This document shows, piece after piece, positions 10,833-21,178 of a stretch of DNA of 25,132 nucleotides. The notes below the pieces were generated by a model, which was not told the origin of the DNA, made no database searches, and worked only from the letters and a program-made list of their open reading frames with translations. The DNA is from a virus. The position numbers were made by a program, and so were the translations under genes. Numbering within the stretch: position 1 is the first letter of the stretch; each line of letters begins with the position of its first letter. The stretch lies in the IMG/VR virus record IMGVR_UViG_3300020463_000123, positions 1-25,132 of that record; one strand, 5' to 3'.

Positions 10833-11237
10833 TTATAATTTTGCGCCAACGTCAGTAGCTGACTTAGCCATCTGTGATACTGTTTTATCGCCTTGGTCTG
10901 TGTCTGCTTGGTTTGCGCCAGAGGCTGCTTTTTTAGTCTTTGGTTCTATACCTTTTTCACTAAAATTTGCAACCATAGTTTTAACTCTAGGATCTGTATC
11001 GTATGCGGCTTTAAATGTTGCATAATCAAACATTTCTCCGCCTATGTTCTGCATCAATTTATTGATGTCTAGAATTTTTGCACCTGGGTGGCTTTTAGCA
11101 AGTTCTGTTCTCATTTTGCCATCTGGTTTTTCGAAAGGAAGGTATAGTGATGTGCCACCTGCGTCGGCACTTCCTATTATTGTTCTGAGTAGCTGTACTA
11201 GTTTTGAGGGTTGACCGTCTTCACCGGCCTCTATGAC
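10833..11237 (-). CDS. -1 frame extension of the upstream virion gene (probable frameshift product C-terminus)
   Basis: This 134-codon open frame begins at a run of nine A residues on the minus strand and ends in TAA. It contains no ATG, GTG or TTG until Met at 11114, yet the 41 codons before that Met read as ordinary protein (VIEAGEDGQPSKLVQLLRT, then GSADAGGTSLYLPFEKPDG). The best explanation is that ribosomes enter it from the 11231-12250 gene by a -1 slip, giving a product of about 472 residues. After Met it continues MRTELAKSHPGAKILDINK and ends in a Lys/Ala/Thr-rich tail. If no frameshift occurs, a 93-residue protein from ATG 11114 is the alternative. I do not recognise a domain. Confidence 0.65.
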   Translation of the reverse strand, partial: VIEAGEDGQPSKLVQLLRTIIGSADAGGTSLYLPFEKPDGKMRTELAKSHPGAKILDINKLMQNIGGEMFDYATFKAAYDTDPRVKTMVANFSEKGIEPKTKKAASGANQADTDQGDKTVSQMAKSATDVGAKL

Positions 11238-11243
11238 TTTTTT
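11213..11243 (-). promoter_or_regulatory. Candidate -1 ribosomal frameshift signal
   Basis: The zero frame reads TCA AAA AAA AAG TCA TAG. The heptamer A AAA AAG (11237-11243) is the dnaX-type slippery site. The zero-frame stop follows one codon later. Seven bases downstream lies a potential hairpin GGCCG-GTGAAGA-CGGTC (11213-11229; five pairs, one of them G-U), within the usual 5-9 base spacing for a stimulator. A shift here joins the frame ending at 10833. A homopolymer sequencing error, or a genuine one-base mutation, would look the same. Confidence 0.6.
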
Positions 11244-12250
11244 TTTGAACCTGCCAAAATCTGTCCAAGCCTTCTTGACATTTCAACTGATTCTCGTTTA
11301 GCTCTACCTGCTTCTTCTTCGCCACCTGCACCTGCTTCTGCAGCAGCAAATTCATCTTCTTGATCTACTGTAGGTTCCATTTCATCGTCTACTGCTGGAG
11401 CTTCTGGATCTGGCTCACCGCCCATATCTTCTGGTGGTGCTTCTCCTTCTCCTGTAAGCATGCCAACACCTTGTGTTAGTGCGGCTCTGGTAGTTTCCAT
11501 TGCGGCATACATAGATTCAAGTGCAGGCTTTACTGTTTGCACAAATGCATCTGATTGTTGTATACCCATCTCATCACGGATAGCATCCGCTAATTCAAGC
11601 ATTGATTCTGTTTGCATTTCAGCTGTGTCTTCCATCCAACTAGTAACTCTATCTACCATGTCTTTTGAAGCCATAACTAATTCTGCTTCGTCCTCTTTGC
11701 CTTCATTAGTTTTTTTCTTAGCAATAGCTTTTTGTAAACCTTTTGGAAGTTTCTTTTGTTTTGCACTTAGACCTTTTCCGCCTTTGCTATCTTTTTTAGC
11801 ATGATCATCTTCACCTGGCTTCTTGTCTGCCCAATCTGGGACACCATCGCCGTCATCGTCTGGCTTCTTTTCTTTTTCATTAACTTTTTTGCTTCCACCC
11901 TGTGATGGAGATGAAGTAGCATGTGACCCTTTCTTCTGCATCTTTTTAGAATCTTTATCTGCTTCTTTTTCGTCTTCTTTGTTAAACTCGGAAATGGTAT
12001 TACGCTCTGATATTTCTGCGTTTAAAACATCAAGCATTAATTTGGATTTTTGGTACGTATCACTCTTATGTACATCGTCGAAACTTTCGGTTGTTTCAAT
12101 AGCGGAAAGCTGTGTTCTTAACTTATTACGAGCGTCATCAAGTTGCTCATTAGTAAAGTCTTGAACATTAAGTTTCTTTCCAAATCTTTTGGCTAGAGTT
12201 TCATTTAAACTTTTAGCTGTAATAGGTTTAGTTATTTCTTTTAAATTCAT
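11231..12250 (-). CDS. Acidic/low-complexity virion-cluster protein (upstream partner of -1 frameshift)
   Basis: A 339-residue protein. It begins MNLKEITKPITAK, one of the leader-like N-termini of this block. Residues about 30-95 form a helical domain (FTNEQLDDARNKLRTQLSAI, KLMLDVLNAEISER) that I recall from T4-like cyanophage virion proteins. A Lys/Asp-rich linker follows with a calcium-loop-like DDDGDGVPDWADKKPGEDD, then a helical segment and a very acidic Pro/Glu/Ala stretch (PEDMGGEPDPEAPAVDDEME). It ends SRRLGQILAGSKKKS beside the slippery A9 run. ATG 12250 has GAGGAAA upstream; an in-frame TTG at 12265 is less likely. The composition suggests a head-core or scaffold-like role, which is inference. 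Confidence 0.75.
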   Translation of the reverse strand: MNLKEITKPITAKSLNETLAKRFGKKLNVQDFTNEQLDDARNKLRTQLSAIETTESFDDVHKSDTYQKSKLMLDVLNAEISERNTISEFNKEDEKEADKDSKKMQKKGSHATSSPSQGGSKKVNEKEKKPDDDGDGVPDWADKKPGEDDHAKKDSKGGKGLSAKQKKLPKGLQKAIAKKKTNEGKEDEAELVMASKDMVDRVTSWMEDTAEMQTESMLELADAIRDEMGIQQSDAFVQTVKPALESMYAAMETTRAALTQGVGMLTGEGEAPPEDMGGEPDPEAPAVDDEMEPTVDQEDEFAAAEAGAGGEEEAGRAKRESVEMSRRLGQILAGSKKKS

Positions 12251-12721: not shown

Positions 12722-12908
12722 TTTTTACCACCATTACAGTTGAGCCCATCTTAAATTTACTTACCAAACTTTTTCGAACTAATTGTTCTATAATGACTTG
12801 TTGTCTTTCGGTAAATCCTTCAATTGGACTTGCTTTATCAATTTTCTTCATCATTTCTGCTTCTTCATTAGTTGTAAACGTACTTTGAATTAAATCTGAA
12901 ATTTTCAT
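12702..12908 (-). CDS. Small hypothetical protein, 68 aa
   Basis: A 68-residue protein beginning MKISDLIQSTF, which resembles the short leaders of its neighbours but has no L/I-x-E site. The remainder is a helical, Met/Lys-rich stretch (EEAEMMKKIDKA, ERQQVIIEQLVRKSLVSKF) ending in a beta hairpin (TVMVVKNGE). The start overlaps the upstream stop by one base (TAATG), so it is translationally coupled. The function is unknown. Confidence 0.65.
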   Translation of the reverse strand: MKISDLIQSTFTTNEEAEMMKKIDKASPIEGFTERQQVIIEQLVRKSLVSKFKMGSTVMVVKNGETRK

Positions 12909-13243
12909 TATACTGTACCAGTGGTACCGGTTGTGCCCTGTGGTTTTTGTTGGTCTTGTTTAGCTTTTATTTCTGCATCTTTTTGTTGTTTATCCATAGT
13001 CATTTTTAACTTTTTTGGATCTGCAACTAAGTTGTTATCTGCAGGAGTCTGCCCAGGCTCTAATGATTTACCTGGTTCGGCTATTCCTATGTTTCCTTCT
13101 TTATCCTGGAACAAAGTTCCAGTAGATTTATTACCAGCGTCAGTATCTAAGTCTGCTACTGAACCATCTGGCATGACTGCTTGTGTAATTGTTTTAGTTT
13201 GGATGGTAGGCATTACATTTTCTGTTATTTCTCTTATTTTCAT
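12908..13243 (-). CDS. Low-complexity virion-block protein with leader MKIREITE
   Basis: A 111-residue, probably disordered protein. The leader MKIREITE-N ends in an I-T-E site like the T4 prohead-protease consensus (L/I-x-E). The rest is Asp/Lys/Gln-rich, with a repeated-looking TITQAVMPDGSVADLDTDAG segment and a Gln/Thr/Gly tail (QQKPQGTTGTTGTV). There is no recognisable domain. It overlaps both neighbours by one base (TAATG). T4 internal proteins are likewise small and leader-bearing, so an internal head protein is a reasonable guess. Confidence 0.65.
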   Translation of the reverse strand: MKIREITENVMPTIQTKTITQAVMPDGSVADLDTDAGNKSTGTLFQDKEGNIGIAEPGKSLEPGQTPADNNLVADPKKLKMTMDKQQKDAEIKAKQDQQKPQGTTGTTGTV

Positions 13244-14235
13244 TATATTCTACCTCCACGTTTTCTGTTGGTTGGTCTGTTAATAGTTTGTAGACGTCTG
13301 GATCTTACATTTTGTGCTCTAGTTTTAATACCAGTCATTCTAACTTTACCTTGTTTAGATGCTTTAGTTTTTTTCAAGGTCTGTCCTTTAGCAACATCAA
13401 GTGGCATATTACACGATGCAGGAGAAGCCATAGTTCTACCTTTACGTACTCCGCTTGTACATCTATATTTTCTAACCTGTTTGCCACCTTGTCTCGACCA
13501 AACTAAACCTTCTCCGAACTTAGAAGCATTGCCGGCTTCTATCCATTTTTGAACTTCTTCAGGATCTACACCATGTCTTTCTGATGCCTTATCTAATGCA
13601 TCCTCTGGCTCCATTCCCTGATCCATGTATTTGTCTCTATCTCCTTTAATAGCAAACCATCTACCTTTGATTAGAGGATCAAACCCTTTATCATTAGGAT
13701 TTTGTTCATATTCTTTATCAGCTCTATCTGCCCAGCTACCATCTTCAGCCTCTTGTGGTACAAGGTCTTGATGAGCAGGATCTAAAGGATCTGTCATATA
13801 CTGAAACACTATTCCAGGATAAGGTATTTCTGGAAATTGATCTTCTATAACTAAAACATAAGCGGTGTAAAGTGATATAGTACCGTTTGCTTCTTTAAAC
13901 TTTTTAAGTGCAGCGTCTCTTATAGCTTCAAACTTTTCTTCAACTAATGCCGCTAATCTGCCCATATATCTAGGCTTCATCATACTTTGAGCCTTTTGTA
14001 TAGCAGTTGCAGTTTGCTTCATCTTATTGATTTCGTCTTCAGGTGCTTCTTTGATATTTTCATTATAATATTTTAAAAATTCTTCATGCTTTTTATGCAT
14101 TGCCGCTACATCTGGATTCTTTAAATATAACTTTAACCAACCTTTGAATTCAGGACTATCTTTTAATTCTTTTTCACTTTTGAAGATATCTAATATACCT
14201 TCATTAGTGTTGCCTGTTATTTGTCTAAGTAACAC
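13243..14235 (-). CDS. Virion-block protein with basic KYRC/C-terminal domain (long paralogue)
   Basis: A 330-residue protein that starts at GTG directly after the upstream stop (TAAGTG). After the leader MLLRQITG, residues about 15-160 are helical (DSPEFKGWLKLYLKNPDVAA), then an acidic middle follows (RADKEYEQNPNDKGFDPLIK). The last 90 residues are strongly basic: GEGLVWSRQGGKQVRKYRC, then GVRKGRTMASPASC, a Lys/Thr stretch, and SRRLQTINRPTNRKRGGR. Two Cys are 16 residues apart. This domain is clearly homologous to the whole of the next gene (14236-14532). The basic tail suggests DNA binding in the head; the function is not known. Confidence 0.75.
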   Translation of the reverse strand: MLLRQITGNTNEGILDIFKSEKELKDSPEFKGWLKLYLKNPDVAAMHKKHEEFLKYYNENIKEAPEDEINKMKQTATAIQKAQSMMKPRYMGRLAALVEEKFEAIRDAALKKFKEANGTISLYTAYVLVIEDQFPEIPYPGIVFQYMTDPLDPAHQDLVPQEAEDGSWADRADKEYEQNPNDKGFDPLIKGRWFAIKGDRDKYMDQGMEPEDALDKASERHGVDPEEVQKWIEAGNASKFGEGLVWSRQGGKQVRKYRCTSGVRKGRTMASPASCNMPLDVAKGQTLKKTKASKQGKVRMTGIKTRAQNVRSRRLQTINRPTNRKRGGRI

Positions 14236-14532
14236 TTACTTTCTCCTACGAGTTGACTTGTTCATAGCCTGCACTCTTCTACTTGCAGGATTGGTTCTCT
14301 TAGTTCTTTTTGTTTTCCTAATTAGCCTTTTACCTAGACGTGCTTTCATACGTTTGATATTAGCCCTTTTTTTAGGATCAATCCTAGCATAACATTGTCC
14401 TGGTACTGATACAATACGGCCGTGCCTAACGCCGCCCACGCATCTATACTTGCGGACTACGTCTTTACCTGATCTCGCCCAGGTAAGACCTTCATCGATT
14501 TCGTCGTTAGATGTGATCTCTCTTAGTAGCAT
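14236..14532 (-). CDS. Small highly basic protein, paralogue of the neighbouring C-terminal domain
   Basis: A 98-residue protein. Leader MLLREITSNDEIDE-G ends in I-D-E. GLTWARSGKDVVRKYRC and GVRHGRIVSVPGQC follow, with C31 and C47 16 residues apart, then a very Arg/Lys-rich end (RKTKRTKRTNPASRR, STRRRK). Nearly every segment has a counterpart in the C-terminal 90 residues of the 13243-14235 product, so one arose from the other by duplication. I recall similar basic KYRC proteins in marine T4-like phages. It is probably a DNA-binding internal or virion protein. No ribosome-binding site is seen; AATAAATA lies 6 bases before ATG. Confidence 0.75.
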   Translation of the reverse strand: MLLREITSNDEIDEGLTWARSGKDVVRKYRCVGGVRHGRIVSVPGQCYARIDPKKRANIKRMKARLGKRLIRKTKRTKRTNPASRRVQAMNKSTRRRK

Positions 14533-17430: not shown

Positions 17431-18672
17431 TTATCGTTGTACGGCTCTATTTGCCGCTGTAAATCCACCCTCGCCTCTGTTGACAAGTTTCATGTCTCCG
17501 CCAGGGTTAGTTAATACGTAGCCTTCTCCGCCTCTATTTTTGCCTATTGTTGCTATAACATCTTGATCGTGGTTGTCAAATTGCTGTATTATATCATCTT
17601 TGACAGCAATCAAGCCTTTCATAATCGTCCACATGCCTTCCCAACCTTTTTTGTTGGTCTTTACATGTTCTAATATTTTTTGTTGTTTCCTTGCACTTAC
17701 TCCACTGCCAGGTAACCATTTAAAAAAGTCTTCTCCAAGATCGCTAAATCCTGTATCAACTTTGCCATTAGTATACTTATAAATTATTTTTGGTAAATCT
17801 TTCATTTGCATCTGTGTAAGATATGCTTCGTCTAATAATTGGTCTAATGAAGGACCATCTCTTGAAATTATTTCTTTCATTTTGTTAATTTTGCTATCAT
17901 CTATTGTGGCAGGCTTCTGTACTGATTGTGGAGGAAATACAAAAACATCGTCACCTAAGAAAACTTGATTAAGATCAGCAGTTACAGGAACTTCAGTACC
18001 TTTGTCATCTAATACTCTGTGTACCACAACACCTGTTCGAGATGCTTTAATTTTAGCACCTAATGGTGAGTCTTGTTTTACTTGGTAAGTTACAATGTTT
18101 GGTGTGAACTCAAAATAACCATCGTCATTAATAGGCGGGGTTGTGTAATATAATAAATCACCTTTGTAATATCCTTCAAAGCCTTCAGGTAACGCTGTTT
18201 TGTATGTGTTAAAAATATTTTTCATGTTGTTAGCAAATGCAACATAACCTGGGTCGCCACGGTTAGCCCCACCTTTGCGATCTAAAAACATATTTTTTAA
18301 TTTGTCTGGACTTTTAGGTTTACCATCATATTTTACTGCTGTAAAACCTGACTTATCTGTAAGTATAAATTCTCCTTGCTCATTATTACCAAAAATTATT
18401 GCAGGTGAACCGTCCCATTTTATTGTAGCATCTACATGTCCGCCTTTTTCTAAACTACGCAATCCTTCTAAAGCTCTTGCGGCTCCTTTAGAACCTTCAA
18501 AATAAACCAAATCCTCTAAGTGTTGTATACGTGCTTCCATACCTTCGGCTACTTTTTCCTTAGGCTTCTTTCCTTTGCCAAAAAGTTCTTTACGTTTTTT
18601 AAAATCTCCTACTACTTTCTTTTTAATATCTTGTAGTACGTTTTCGTTTACTTTAAATTCATGATATCTCAT
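17431..18672 (-). CDS. DNA/RNA-ligase-like nucleotidyltransferase-fold protein (DUF6267-like)
   Basis: A 413-residue protein that I relate to the DUF6267-type proteins of T4-like cyanophages. Ligase-superfamily motifs occur in order: motif I K85-W-D-G88 (VDATIKWDGSPAIIFG), a motif III-like YYKGDLLYY, motif IV E383-G-Y-V (GGEGYVLTNPGG) and motif V K395-L (DMKLVNR). This is the set used by ATP-dependent ligases and capping enzymes to form an enzyme-AMP or -GMP adduct on the motif I lysine. The N-terminus (MRYHEFKVNEN) matches the block's leader pattern. The C-terminal OB fold of a full ligase is not obvious. It overlaps its upstream neighbour by four bases. Ligase activity is inference; a tag, capping or nucleotidylation role is also possible. 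Confidence 0.7.
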   Translation of the reverse strand: MRYHEFKVNENVLQDIKKKVVGDFKKRKELFGKGKKPKEKVAEGMEARIQHLEDLVYFEGSKGAARALEGLRSLEKGGHVDATIKWDGSPAIIFGNNEQGEFILTDKSGFTAVKYDGKPKSPDKLKNMFLDRKGGANRGDPGYVAFANNMKNIFNTYKTALPEGFEGYYKGDLLYYTTPPINDDGYFEFTPNIVTYQVKQDSPLGAKIKASRTGVVVHRVLDDKGTEVPVTADLNQVFLGDDVFVFPPQSVQKPATIDDSKINKMKEIISRDGPSLDQLLDEAYLTQMQMKDLPKIIYKYTNGKVDTGFSDLGEDFFKWLPGSGVSARKQQKILEHVKTNKKGWEGMWTIMKGLIAVKDDIIQQFDNHDQDVIATIGKNRGGEGYVLTNPGGDMKLVNRGEGGFTAANRAVQR

Positions 18673-20288
18673 AGCATCATTTCTTTCATTATATCAAAGT
18701 AAAGTTTGGTTTCTTTTGTTGGCTGAAACTGTGTGCCATCCCATGTGCCATCTTTGTTTGCACCTTTGCCATAGTATGTTGTTTTACCATTTACATCAAC
18801 TTCTCCTGCTGGATGAACAAGTGTCTTTGCTTTTTCTGCTTGTGACCGTAAATCACGAGCTTGTTGTTTTAATTTAACATATCCTGGGTCTTGTGTAAAG
18901 TCAAATCTCTTTGCAGTAGGATTTTGTTTTTTATAGTTGTCGGCAAACGCTCTCATTTGAGTACGTTCAACTTCTTTTGCTTGATCTCTAAGTTTATTAC
19001 TTTCGTCATTGTCTGCATACTTTGAAGCGAATCTTGTAGTACTACCTCCACCTGACTGTTTTACAGATGTAGTAGTGCCTCCTGTTCTTGTTACATTAGA
19101 AGTTGAAGTGCTATTACTAGTAGTATTACTTGTGCTAGTATTAGTATTAATATCATCGTCGCTGTCAAGTGCTTTGTCAAAATCATCATCTCCATCTAGA
19201 GCTTTATCAAAATCATCATCTCCATCTAGAGCTTTATCAAATGCCGCATCGCCCTTTGGATCATCTGCAAATGGATCTTTCATATTACTTTTTCCAAAGG
19301 CATCATCGTCTCCATCGAGTGCTTTGTCAAAGTCTGACTTTACATTATTAGCAACTCTTGGGTCTGAAGATAAGTCTTTAATCTTTTGTTGGTCTGCAAC
19401 ATTTTGTTTTGCATATTTGTCATCTATTGCTTTTAACTCTGCAGGATAATTTGGATCACGCTTATCACTTGGTACACCTTTATTATATTTACTATTAGGG
19501 TCTTCTAGTTGTGCTTGTACCCATCTTTGTTTTTCATCGCTAGCCGCTTTACTGCTACCTTGTATTTTTGCTTTTAAATTTGCTACATCGTTTTGTCTGC
19601 CGCTTACATCTGTACCAAATCTTTTTTCGTACTCTGCTCTAGTAGCTGGCTTACCATCAAGTGTATATGTGCTTGCATCACCGCCATCTTGTGCTTTAGT
19701 TGGTGTTTGATCTCCTGTTGAGGCTGTATTATTAGTAGTGCCAGTTGGCTCGGCATCACCTGTAGGTTCAGCTGTAGTTGTGTCAGTTGCTGGAGTCGTA
19801 TTTGTCGTAGGTTTAGCTGTAGTTGTATCAGTTGCTGGTGTTGTAGGTTTAGCATCAGCTGGCTGTGTATCAGCTGGCTGTGTAGTTTGTGGAGTAGTTG
19901 ATGCGGCCTTAGCTTGTGTTCCGCCCGTTGGTGCAGCGTTTGCTGGTTGGCCAGGAGCAGGTGCTTTAGCTGGTGCACCTGTTGTAGCTGGTGCGGCCTT
20001 TTGTGTAGCTGGTGCTTGCGCCTGCGGAGCGGCTCCACCTGTATTAATTTTTGCTAATGTACTATCTCCTGCTTGACCGTCTGCTTGTAAGCCATTTGCT
20101 TTCTGATATGCTTGTACTGCTTTAAATGTTCCAGGACCATACTTTCCGTCTATTCCGTTTGGATCAAATCCTGCCGCCTTTAGTTTAGTTTGCAAATCTT
20201 TAATTGCTGGCAAGGCTTTCTTGCCGCCTCGATTGTATTGAGTCATCAAGTCGGGTGCTTCTACAATTTTTATTTCTTTAAATCTCAT
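18669..20288 (-). CDS. Peptidoglycan-binding-domain protein with long disordered linkers and acidic repeats
   Basis: A 539-residue protein. Leader MRFKEIKIVE-A (I-V-E/A site) precedes a PG_binding_1 domain at about 26-82 (LQTKLKAAGFDPNGIDGKYG, FKAVQAYQKANGL). Next comes a 110-residue Ala/Pro/Thr/Gln linker, then helical segments, three near-identical acidic repeats (FDKALDGDDD) with two diverged copies upstream, a Ser/Thr/Asn stretch, and a helical Lys-rich region ending LYFDIMKEMML. PG_binding_1 modules anchor virion or lytic proteins to the cell wall, but no lysozyme or peptidase domain is visible here. It overlaps both neighbours by four bases (ATGA). A packaged or tail-associated cell-wall protein is the likely role. 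Confidence 0.72.
   Translation of the reverse strand: MRFKEIKIVEAPDLMTQYNRGGKKALPAIKDLQTKLKAAGFDPNGIDGKYGPGTFKAVQAYQKANGLQADGQAGDSTLAKINTGGAAPQAQAPATQKAAPATTGAPAKAPAPGQPANAAPTGGTQAKAASTTPQTTQPADTQPADAKPTTPATDTTTAKPTTNTTPATDTTTAEPTGDAEPTGTTNNTASTGDQTPTKAQDGGDASTYTLDGKPATRAEYEKRFGTDVSGRQNDVANLKAKIQGSSKAASDEKQRWVQAQLEDPNSKYNKGVPSDKRDPNYPAELKAIDDKYAKQNVADQQKIKDLSSDPRVANNVKSDFDKALDGDDDAFGKSNMKDPFADDPKGDAAFDKALDGDDDFDKALDGDDDFDKALDSDDDINTNTSTSNTTSNSTSTSNVTRTGGTTTSVKQSGGGSTTRFASKYADNDESNKLRDQAKEVERTQMRAFADNYKKQNPTAKRFDFTQDPGYVKLKQQARDLRSQAEKAKTLVHPAGEVDVNGKTTYYGKGANKDGTWDGTQFQPTKETKLYFDIMKEMML
19153..19251 (-). repeat. 30-base tandem repeat coding FDKALDGDDD
   Basis: Two nearly identical 30-base units (19171-19200 and 19201-19230, differing at one base) are flanked by partial copies on both sides. 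A further diverged copy lies at about 19300-19330. They encode the decapeptide FDKALDGDDD or close variants. The near-perfect DNA identity suggests recent expansion. Confidence 0.85.
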
Positions 20289-21178
20289 ACCCCTGCCAAC
20301 TGTTTAATTCTATCTAATTCTTTATCGTCTTTAGTAACTTTGTTTTTAATTTCATCTGGAACACCGATATCTTTAACTACACCGTTCTTTGCAAAACTAT
20401 CTATAATTTTTTGATATAGTTCTGGTTTGTAATTTTTTTTAATTGCTTTATGGATAGTTTCAAATGAATGCAAATCTGCACCACTATTCAATCCTAATGC
20501 TTTAGCTATTTGATCTGGATTCGTTATTGGTTTTTGTAAATCTGTATCTATATGTGCTTTTGTATATCCGTTACCATCAGCTCTTGGCTTTGGTACACGT
20601 TTAATTCTCACTAGTCCTTTTGAAGGAGACCATATCCAACGTGTAACTTCCATAGCTCTATCATCAGCAGTACGTTCTTCAGATGATTCTCTTTCCCATA
20701 ACGCACACATTGTAGCAATCATAATATTACGATATACGCCTTTGTATTTTGATTCAGTTTCACTTGGTGAATGGTAGTATGTTTTCATCCATCCCGGATC
20801 ACCTGGCATATAGTCAACTTGTACATAACCTGTACGACCTGATGGTACGCCTTTGCTTTCGCCAGTGTTAGGATCTATCTCTTCTCTTTTCGGATCATAG
20901 TCTTGTATTTTAACTTTAGTAATGAACACACTGGTTTTAGCAAAGTACAATGTTAATGGGCTTTCTTGAACTTTTTTACCGAATACTCCAATATCATCTG
21001 GATTGATCTGAACAGCTACATCTATATCTCCGCTAAATTGCTTTTTACCTGCACTACCTAACATATTATCGATTAGGTTAACTCCTAATGCTTTTCCTAA
21101 TGGTGCAAGTGTAGCTTCAATCTCGTCTTTATGTATAGGTCCTACACCTGGTGCTGAACCGCCCTCATTTAGAAACAT
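20285..21178 (-). CDS. Pol-beta-type nucleotidyltransferase-like protein
   Basis: A 297-residue protein. The hallmark G41-S42 ... D51-x-D53 pattern (LGSAGKKQFSGDIDVAVQI) is that of the polymerase-beta nucleotidyltransferase superfamily. A candidate third acidic residue is D122 in GYVQVDYMPGD. The preceding helix-turn (IEATLAPLGKALG) also fits the fold. Members add nucleotides to RNA, antibiotics or proteins. The leader is only MFLNE-GG, with an L-N-E/G site. The C-terminal part is helical. It overlaps the PG-binding gene by four bases and the preceding small gene by fourteen. The substrate is unknown. Confidence 0.7.
   Translation of the reverse strand: MFLNEGGSAPGVGPIHKDEIEATLAPLGKALGVNLIDNMLGSAGKKQFSGDIDVAVQINPDDIGVFGKKVQESPLTLYFAKTSVFITKVKIQDYDPKREEIDPNTGESKGVPSGRTGYVQVDYMPGDPGWMKTYYHSPSETESKYKGVYRNIMIATMCALWERESSEERTADDRAMEVTRWIWSPSKGLVRIKRVPKPRADGNGYTKAHIDTDLQKPITNPDQIAKALGLNSGADLHSFETIHKAIKKNYKPELYQKIIDSFAKNGVVKDIGVPDEIKNKVTKDDKELDRIKQLAGV

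Follow-up and report, generated by a model that had tools for sequence, protein, structure and literature searches.

The locus examined here raises the question of whether two overlapping reading frames of an uncultivated phage, the first ending at a run of A residues and the second lacking a start of its own, are joined into one protein, and what such a joined protein could be for. The window, that is the whole stretch of DNA analysed, comprises 25,132 nucleotides (IMG/VR virus record IMGVR_UViG_3300020463_000123, positions 1 to 25,132). Gene A (11231..12250, minus strand, ATG at 12250) encodes a 0-frame product of 339 aa that matches PHROG 14154, and its 3' end reads ...GGT TCA AAA AAA AAG TCA TAG on the minus strand, down to 11231. 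The slip site, TCA AAA AAA AAG, contains the A9 run at 11238..11246 (minus strand) and, as read from the sequence, an in-frame A_AAA_AAG heptamer at 11237-11243 (minus strand). The 0-frame stop TAG (11231..11233, minus strand) lies one codon (TCA) past the run. After the slip the -1 frame reads VIEAGEDGQPSKLVQLLRTIIGSADAGG... and continues for 134 residues to a stop at 10833. This frame constitutes domain B (10833..11237, minus strand), the predicted C-terminal part of a fusion of 338 + 134 = 472 residues. Its first ATG, GTG or TTG is residue 42, which leaves 41 codons without a start. A first-pass annotation of the window had described a nine-A run with A AAA AAG and a stop one codon on, a -1 frame open for 134 codons with no start for 41, and a product of about 472 instead of 339 residues; all of these readings are borne out.

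Homologues were sought by scanning a viral contig collection with the A part, the B part and members of the family. Loci carrying both A and B number 348, or 158 when only unique DNA is counted, and A without detectable B occurs at one locus only, from a contig fragment. At 125 of the 158 unique loci a run of 8-10 A residues precedes the end of A, and B always follows in the -1 frame. The run is nine residues long at 116 of these fused loci, ten at seven and eight at two; it holds an in-frame slippery heptamer in every case (125/125) and is followed by a stop within 1-2 codons at 104. The remaining 33 loci lack the run; their B is an ORF by itself that may lie in any frame, has its own ATG and is mostly preceded by a GGA-type ribosome site. 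None of the 158 unique-DNA relatives has B fused in frame with A or in the remaining frame. Clustering at 85% protein identity gave 71 fused and 14 separate lineages. One locus, L019 (A6G), was first taken as a case of the minimal heptamer; its B has an ATG of its own, and it was counted as separate.

Alignments of A and B show good protein conservation either side of the junction. Over the first 33-36 codons after the slip, differences at -1 codon positions 1/2/3 amount to 152/67/359, and codon changes in the -1 frame comprise 289 synonymous versus 189 non-synonymous. Judged by these substitutions, B is under purifying selection in the -1 frame, and the codon-position pattern among relatives agrees with the earlier reading of the start-less codons as ordinary protein. 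The relatives with a separate ORF indicate in turn that B is a real protein.

Other accounts would dispense with frameshifting at the junction. One is an A too many or too few, through faulty sequencing or assembly or in a gene decaying to a pseudogene; long single-base runs invite such errors, and the window by itself does not rule this out. Many metagenomes, however, supply the same layout, at 125 unique loci in all, both parts show purifying selection, and identical recurrence of a one-base error in more than 100 contigs is impossible; by this comparison sequencing error, pseudogene and chance are excluded, what doubt is left about the first two being negligible. Nor do the homologues resolve into two ordinary genes, since the 33 loci with a separate B are run-less and form a derived minority that the combined tree places inside the frameshift group. 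Alternatively, B could arise without frameshifting if ribosomes re-initiated, or translation were coupled, at a start codon close to where A stops. A GTG does overlap the TGA stop of A (AAAAAAAAAGTGA) in 11 of the 71 fused lineages, several of which continue V/M-[KR]-I-x-E in the manner of a targeting leader, but the other lineages, including the window, have no start there. An ATG, GTG or TTG lies within 30 nt of the run in only 16 of 71 fused lineages (just one of them an ATG) and in none of the other 55, the median first ATG of the -1 frame is 150 nt past the run in the 71 fused lineages, and conserved B sequence begins well ahead of that first ATG. Re-initiation is thus very improbable as an account of the family and is at most an extra route in one subgroup. 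Since over 70 divergent lineages, defined by 85% clusters, conserve the arrangement, a programmed net -1 recoding at the A/B junction is about as well supported as comparison alone allows, and is regarded as nearly certain. The first-pass annotation had proposed a likely -1 programmed frameshift, to be supported by homologues that keep the slippery run with both frames open and to be refuted by a homopolymer error or by homologues with separate genes. The proposal stands: the run and both frames are kept at 125 of 158 unique loci, more than 70 lineages conserve the site and both frames, and both grounds for refutation fail.

The agent of the slip could be the ribosome or RNA polymerase. A ribosomal slip is considered probable; this step is inferred, there being no RNA or expression data. 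The third lysine codon of the run is AAG in 56 lineages versus AAA in 6, against a background of 120:177, and AAG makes up only 40% of the lysine codons upstream in A (nominal p 3e-16 for the preference, relatedness among lineages being ignored). The pairing of E. coli tRNA-Lys is stronger with AAA than with AAG (PMC5009743), and AAG as the A-site codon is therefore expected to favour slippage. Transcriptional slippage, by which polymerase would add one A or drop two on A9 and normal translation would then yield the same A-B fusion, has no need of this codon preference. It remains a rival because the whole A9 run is conserved: the run is never shorter than eight and nearly always nine, though A6G suffices for the ribosome, and polymerase is known to slip on runs of more than seven A's (PMC3711429). 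In an E. coli reporter study frameshifting climbed with run length to ~40% at nine A's, the two mechanisms not being separated (PMC3711429). The lack of a conserved ribosomal stimulator is also in keeping with a polymerase slip. The shift is nevertheless -1 only in all 71 lineages, a single direction being taken as a sign of ribosomal frameshifting by Antonov et al., whereas slippage families tend to show both directions (PMC3711429), and the runs never exceed ten. Taken together, transcriptional slippage is rather unlikely, without being disposed of. The dnaX-type heptamer in which the first-pass annotation saw the signal is present, but what the family conserves is the A9 run in full rather than only the heptamer.

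A stimulator had also been proposed, in the form of a 5-bp hairpin, GGCCG-GTGAAGA-CGGTC (11213..11229, minus strand), 7 nt 3' of the heptamer. The hairpin exists in the window, but its fold is unremarkable, a 101-nt stretch that contains it folding with little advantage over shuffles (z -1.17), and it is unconserved in the family. A conserved downstream hairpin was tested for across the family in two ways and was not found, and a Shine-Dalgarno-like element upstream of the slip, also looked for in the family, was not found either. Hairpins with a score of at least 12 lie downstream of the slip in 28% of lineages versus 3-34% at other positions, with unrelated sequences; downstream hairpins are thus weakly enriched and lineage-specific. 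The window hairpin may help locally, outside the conserved signal. Certain phage frameshift sites are without stimulators (PMC5009743).

Gene A belongs to a family of head proteins. All 20 A-family members searched match PHROG 14154, 'virion structural protein' (head and packaging), with a best E of 2.8e-16, and the window A matches phrog_14154 at E 2.1e-10. By alignment and AlphaFold2 model, the conserved C-terminal region of A (11234..11713, minus strand) consists of long helices, an acidic linker and an RRLGxIL tail. The conserved helical region is also present in gp044 of the Agrobacterium jumbo phage Atu_ph07 (profile E 8.5e-13), which is annotated as a virion structural protein; with the conserved A region as query against cultured phages, Atu_ph07 was the sole match, at E 0.09, and was later confirmed by profile. 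The Atu_ph07 cluster of CDS 31-76, which includes gp044, is rich in virion proteins identified by mass spectrometry (PMC6102473). Unlike the window A, gp044 is a single ORF of 771 aa with no detectable B nearby and no A-run junction. Among 50,697 cultured phages searched by tblastn, neither A nor B had a usable match, and Pfam returned nothing for either protein.

Domain B is less readily placed. It is modelled by AlphaFold2 as an alpha/beta domain of 134 aa with a confident core (pLDDT 80; about 90 or more over residues 11-100). A PHROGs search returned nothing reliable for B, the model had no significant match in the PDB (best E 0.7), and in BFVD it matched one uncultured phage protein (E 0.0012). 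Going by the model, B has no recognisable fold or function. A winged-helix domain was considered for B; its best VIA Z of 4.2 is too weak to name a fold.

A 262-kb relative, G001, carries a T4-type head module comprising portal, Peptidase_S77 protease (gp21), scaffold-like protein and gp23, the portal and scaffold being named from sequence together with gene order. The gp21-type protease and gp23 were seen on G001 only, the window being a 25-kb fragment. The gp23 of G001 has a matching YLAE/T site; its nearest counterparts are the gp23 proteins of T4-like jumbo phages, Phosso and PA5oct among them, with 66-72% identity.

In T4, internal proteins enter the prohead by means of a short N-terminal capsid-targeting sequence, and gp21 cuts after L/I-X-E (PMC9026906); Alt is cut at ITE-6 (PMC5694885). 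The window A begins with a capsid-targeting-like peptide, MNLKEITKPITAKSLNE, with a protease-like LNE site (12200..12250, minus strand), recognised by its conservation and by the T4 gp21 cut rule. Nearly all members of the family, fused or separate, have an A starting M[NK][IL]x[ED][IL]xKPxTxxxLNE. The separate B starts M[KRL][IVM]x[ED][ILV] in all 14 lineages, each with an [IL]xE within 14 residues (shuffled sequences gave 5 lineages on average and 12 at most), and the fused B is without a leader of its own. At the fused junction, [ILV]xE occurs within 14 residues past the slip in 68 of 71 lineages, where 5000 shuffles gave a mean of 28 and a maximum of 44, and it is found in only 1.6% of other 14-aa windows of B. 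From this enrichment across lineages, V-I-E/A at the A/B junction of the window (11229..11237, minus strand) is a putative prohead-protease site. The junction Glu stands at a variable distance from the slip and is most often followed by Ala or Ser. The strict [IL]xE of the T4 consensus is present at the junction of only 29 of the 71 fused lineages (shuffle mean 17.6, maximum 30), which weakens the case for capsid loading and cleavage. Val at P3 dominates the fused junctions, unlike the Leu/Ile of T4, and is partly a by-product of the slip site, since wherever AAG precedes a codon beginning with T, the -1 frame must read GTN there.

These data are best explained overall, with confidence somewhat above even, by a frameshift A-B fusion that is loaded into the head and cleaved at its junction. 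Most ribosomes would stop one codon past the A9 run to give A, which would be an internal protein of the head and bears a capsid-targeting peptide at its N-terminus. Some would slip -1 on A AAA AAA AAG by two tandem lysine-tRNA slips, favoured by AAG as last codon, and would read into B to give the fusion. The targeting peptide of A would then bring B into the prohead core, where a gp21-type prohead protease would cut after [ILV]xE at the junction and free B inside the head, to be kept there or injected with the DNA. In relatives without the slip site, the separate B has gained its own targeting-like leader ending [IL]xE. The simplest reading of the two kinds of leader is that B must enter the head, on the leader of A when fused and on its own when separate. 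What can be read from sequence is the -1 fusion and its conservation, the motifs, the separate state and the gp21/gp23 head module on a relative. Loading of B through A is moderately favoured, packaging being inferred only from leader-like sequences and the partner, and cleavage of the A-B junction, inferred without proteomic data, could equally be right or wrong.

The fusion could instead persist uncleaved as a functional minor form of A, like T7 10B or CsoS2, with B as a C-terminal extension that is never released. This is the commoner phage use of frameshifting in structural proteins (PMC5009743), and the frequent Val at P3, in place of the T4 Leu/Ile, fits it as well. Relatives make a free B with its own leader, however, so the covalent link to A is dispensable, and the protease-like motif is conserved at the junction despite its variable distance. 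A permanent extension is considered unlikely on these grounds, and loading followed by cleavage is preferred.

When the A and B regions are joined and a tree is built, separate loci fall within the fused group and 3 changes are needed; the combined A + B alignment rejects a tree in which all separate loci form one clade (AU p 0.0008). Several origins of the separate state were not demonstrated by A alone (AU p 0.11) or by B alone (0.30), each being too short to decide, and recombination could blur the combined-alignment result. More than one origin, as inferred from these alignments, is thus likely without being certain. In one fused subgroup the sequence is AAAAAAAAAGTGA[GA]A..., with the GTG followed by [KR]-I-x-E-[VI]. 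GTG-over-TGA junctions placed directly after the A9 run and continuing in this way are seen in L025, L028, L072, L091, L104, L234 and L246. The subgroup may stand midway between frameshifting and a separate gene, a stage at which the post-slip sequence could double as start and leader.

Tailed phages frameshift in tail-chaperone, capsid and tail genes. As in T7 and gpG-GT, for which the details compared here are partly general knowledge, recoding takes place near the 3' end of a virion-related gene, but A is of another gene family (PHROG 14154, head) and has a conserved protease-like site at the junction. The A-B system shares the heptamer, the -1 direction and the nearby stop with the A_AAA_AAG frameshifting of bacterial dnaX and IS elements (PMC3711429, PMC5009743). 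It differs from these in always having an A8-A10 run, in lacking a Shine-Dalgarno-like stimulator and a conserved hairpin, and in that its longer product arises from the shift. With T4 IPI-III and Alt (PMC9026906, PMC5694885) it has in common the short leader ending [IL]xE on A and on the separate B, and relatives of the window encode gp21 and gp23. Unlike the T4 internal proteins, the fused B is leaderless and would depend on frameshifting onto A, and its junction often has Val at P3.

In retroviral and totiviral Gag-Pol (PMC5009743) a slip near the end of a structural ORF likewise fuses a second protein to a capsid component and can carry it into the particle before cleavage; such a fusion can aid packaging ahead of cleavage (PMC5009743). 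The present system differs in belonging to a dsDNA tailed phage, in that B is no recognised enzyme, and in having no strong downstream stimulator, and packaging and cleavage of A-B are inferred only. A Gag-Pol-like strategy in tailed DNA phages, in which one targeting peptide loads A and a passenger, the maturation protease frees the passenger, and slip-less lineages evolved a separate leader more than once on the combined tree, is put forward tentatively and falls a little short of even confidence.

No report of frameshifting in the gene family of A was found in the literature on T4-like, jumbo-phage and capsid-targeting contexts, in which most subscription papers were not covered; the first-pass annotation had known of none either. 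Within the same incomplete coverage, no report was found of frameshifting coupled to prohead maturation. Recoding that is widely conserved in a T4-like phage head gene has no counterpart in the papers searched. Further findings of this analysis are the T4-like capsid-targeting N-terminus on A, the prohead-protease-like [ILV]xE motif at the junction and the targeting-like start on all 14 separate B lineages. The arrangement suggests a way by which a phage fixes the ratio of a packaged protein that has no targeting signal of its own. As relatives exist in both the fused and the separate state, the family offers a natural experiment on the role of the capsid-targeting peptide. In fused genomes, gene prediction programs will end A early and overlook B, which databases are therefore likely to lack. 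Should B be injected along with the DNA, it would be a candidate early takeover or counter-defence factor, which is speculation.

Additional observations concern the neighbouring genes and Atu_ph07. A run of window genes between 10833 and 21428 (minus strand) share capsid-targeting-like N-termini, most of which end [ILV]xE. On the minus strand, leader-like starts include MKIREITE/N at 12908, MLLREITSNDEIDE/G at 14236, MRYHEFKVNE/N at 17431, MRFKEIKIVE/A at 18669, MFLNE/G at 20285 and MKKYTRSILE/E at 21165. Their N-termini suggest that these genes may encode a large set of packaged head proteins. In Atu_ph07 (L354), gp043, gp046 and gp047 have the leader-like starts MRLIDLLE/S, MKFIDIVG and MRYKDLKLNE/D, by which this style of targeting may extend to cultured jumbo phages. 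The C-terminal part of a 330-aa protein of the window (13243-14235) repeats its 98-aa neighbour (14236-14532), with the pattern GLxWxRxGxxxxRKYRCxxGVRxGR, likely a tandem duplication of a small, cysteine-containing basic domain to judge from the two sequences. A 30-base tandem repeat at 19171-19241, within a gene of 539 aa, encodes acidic DFDKALDGDD repeats.
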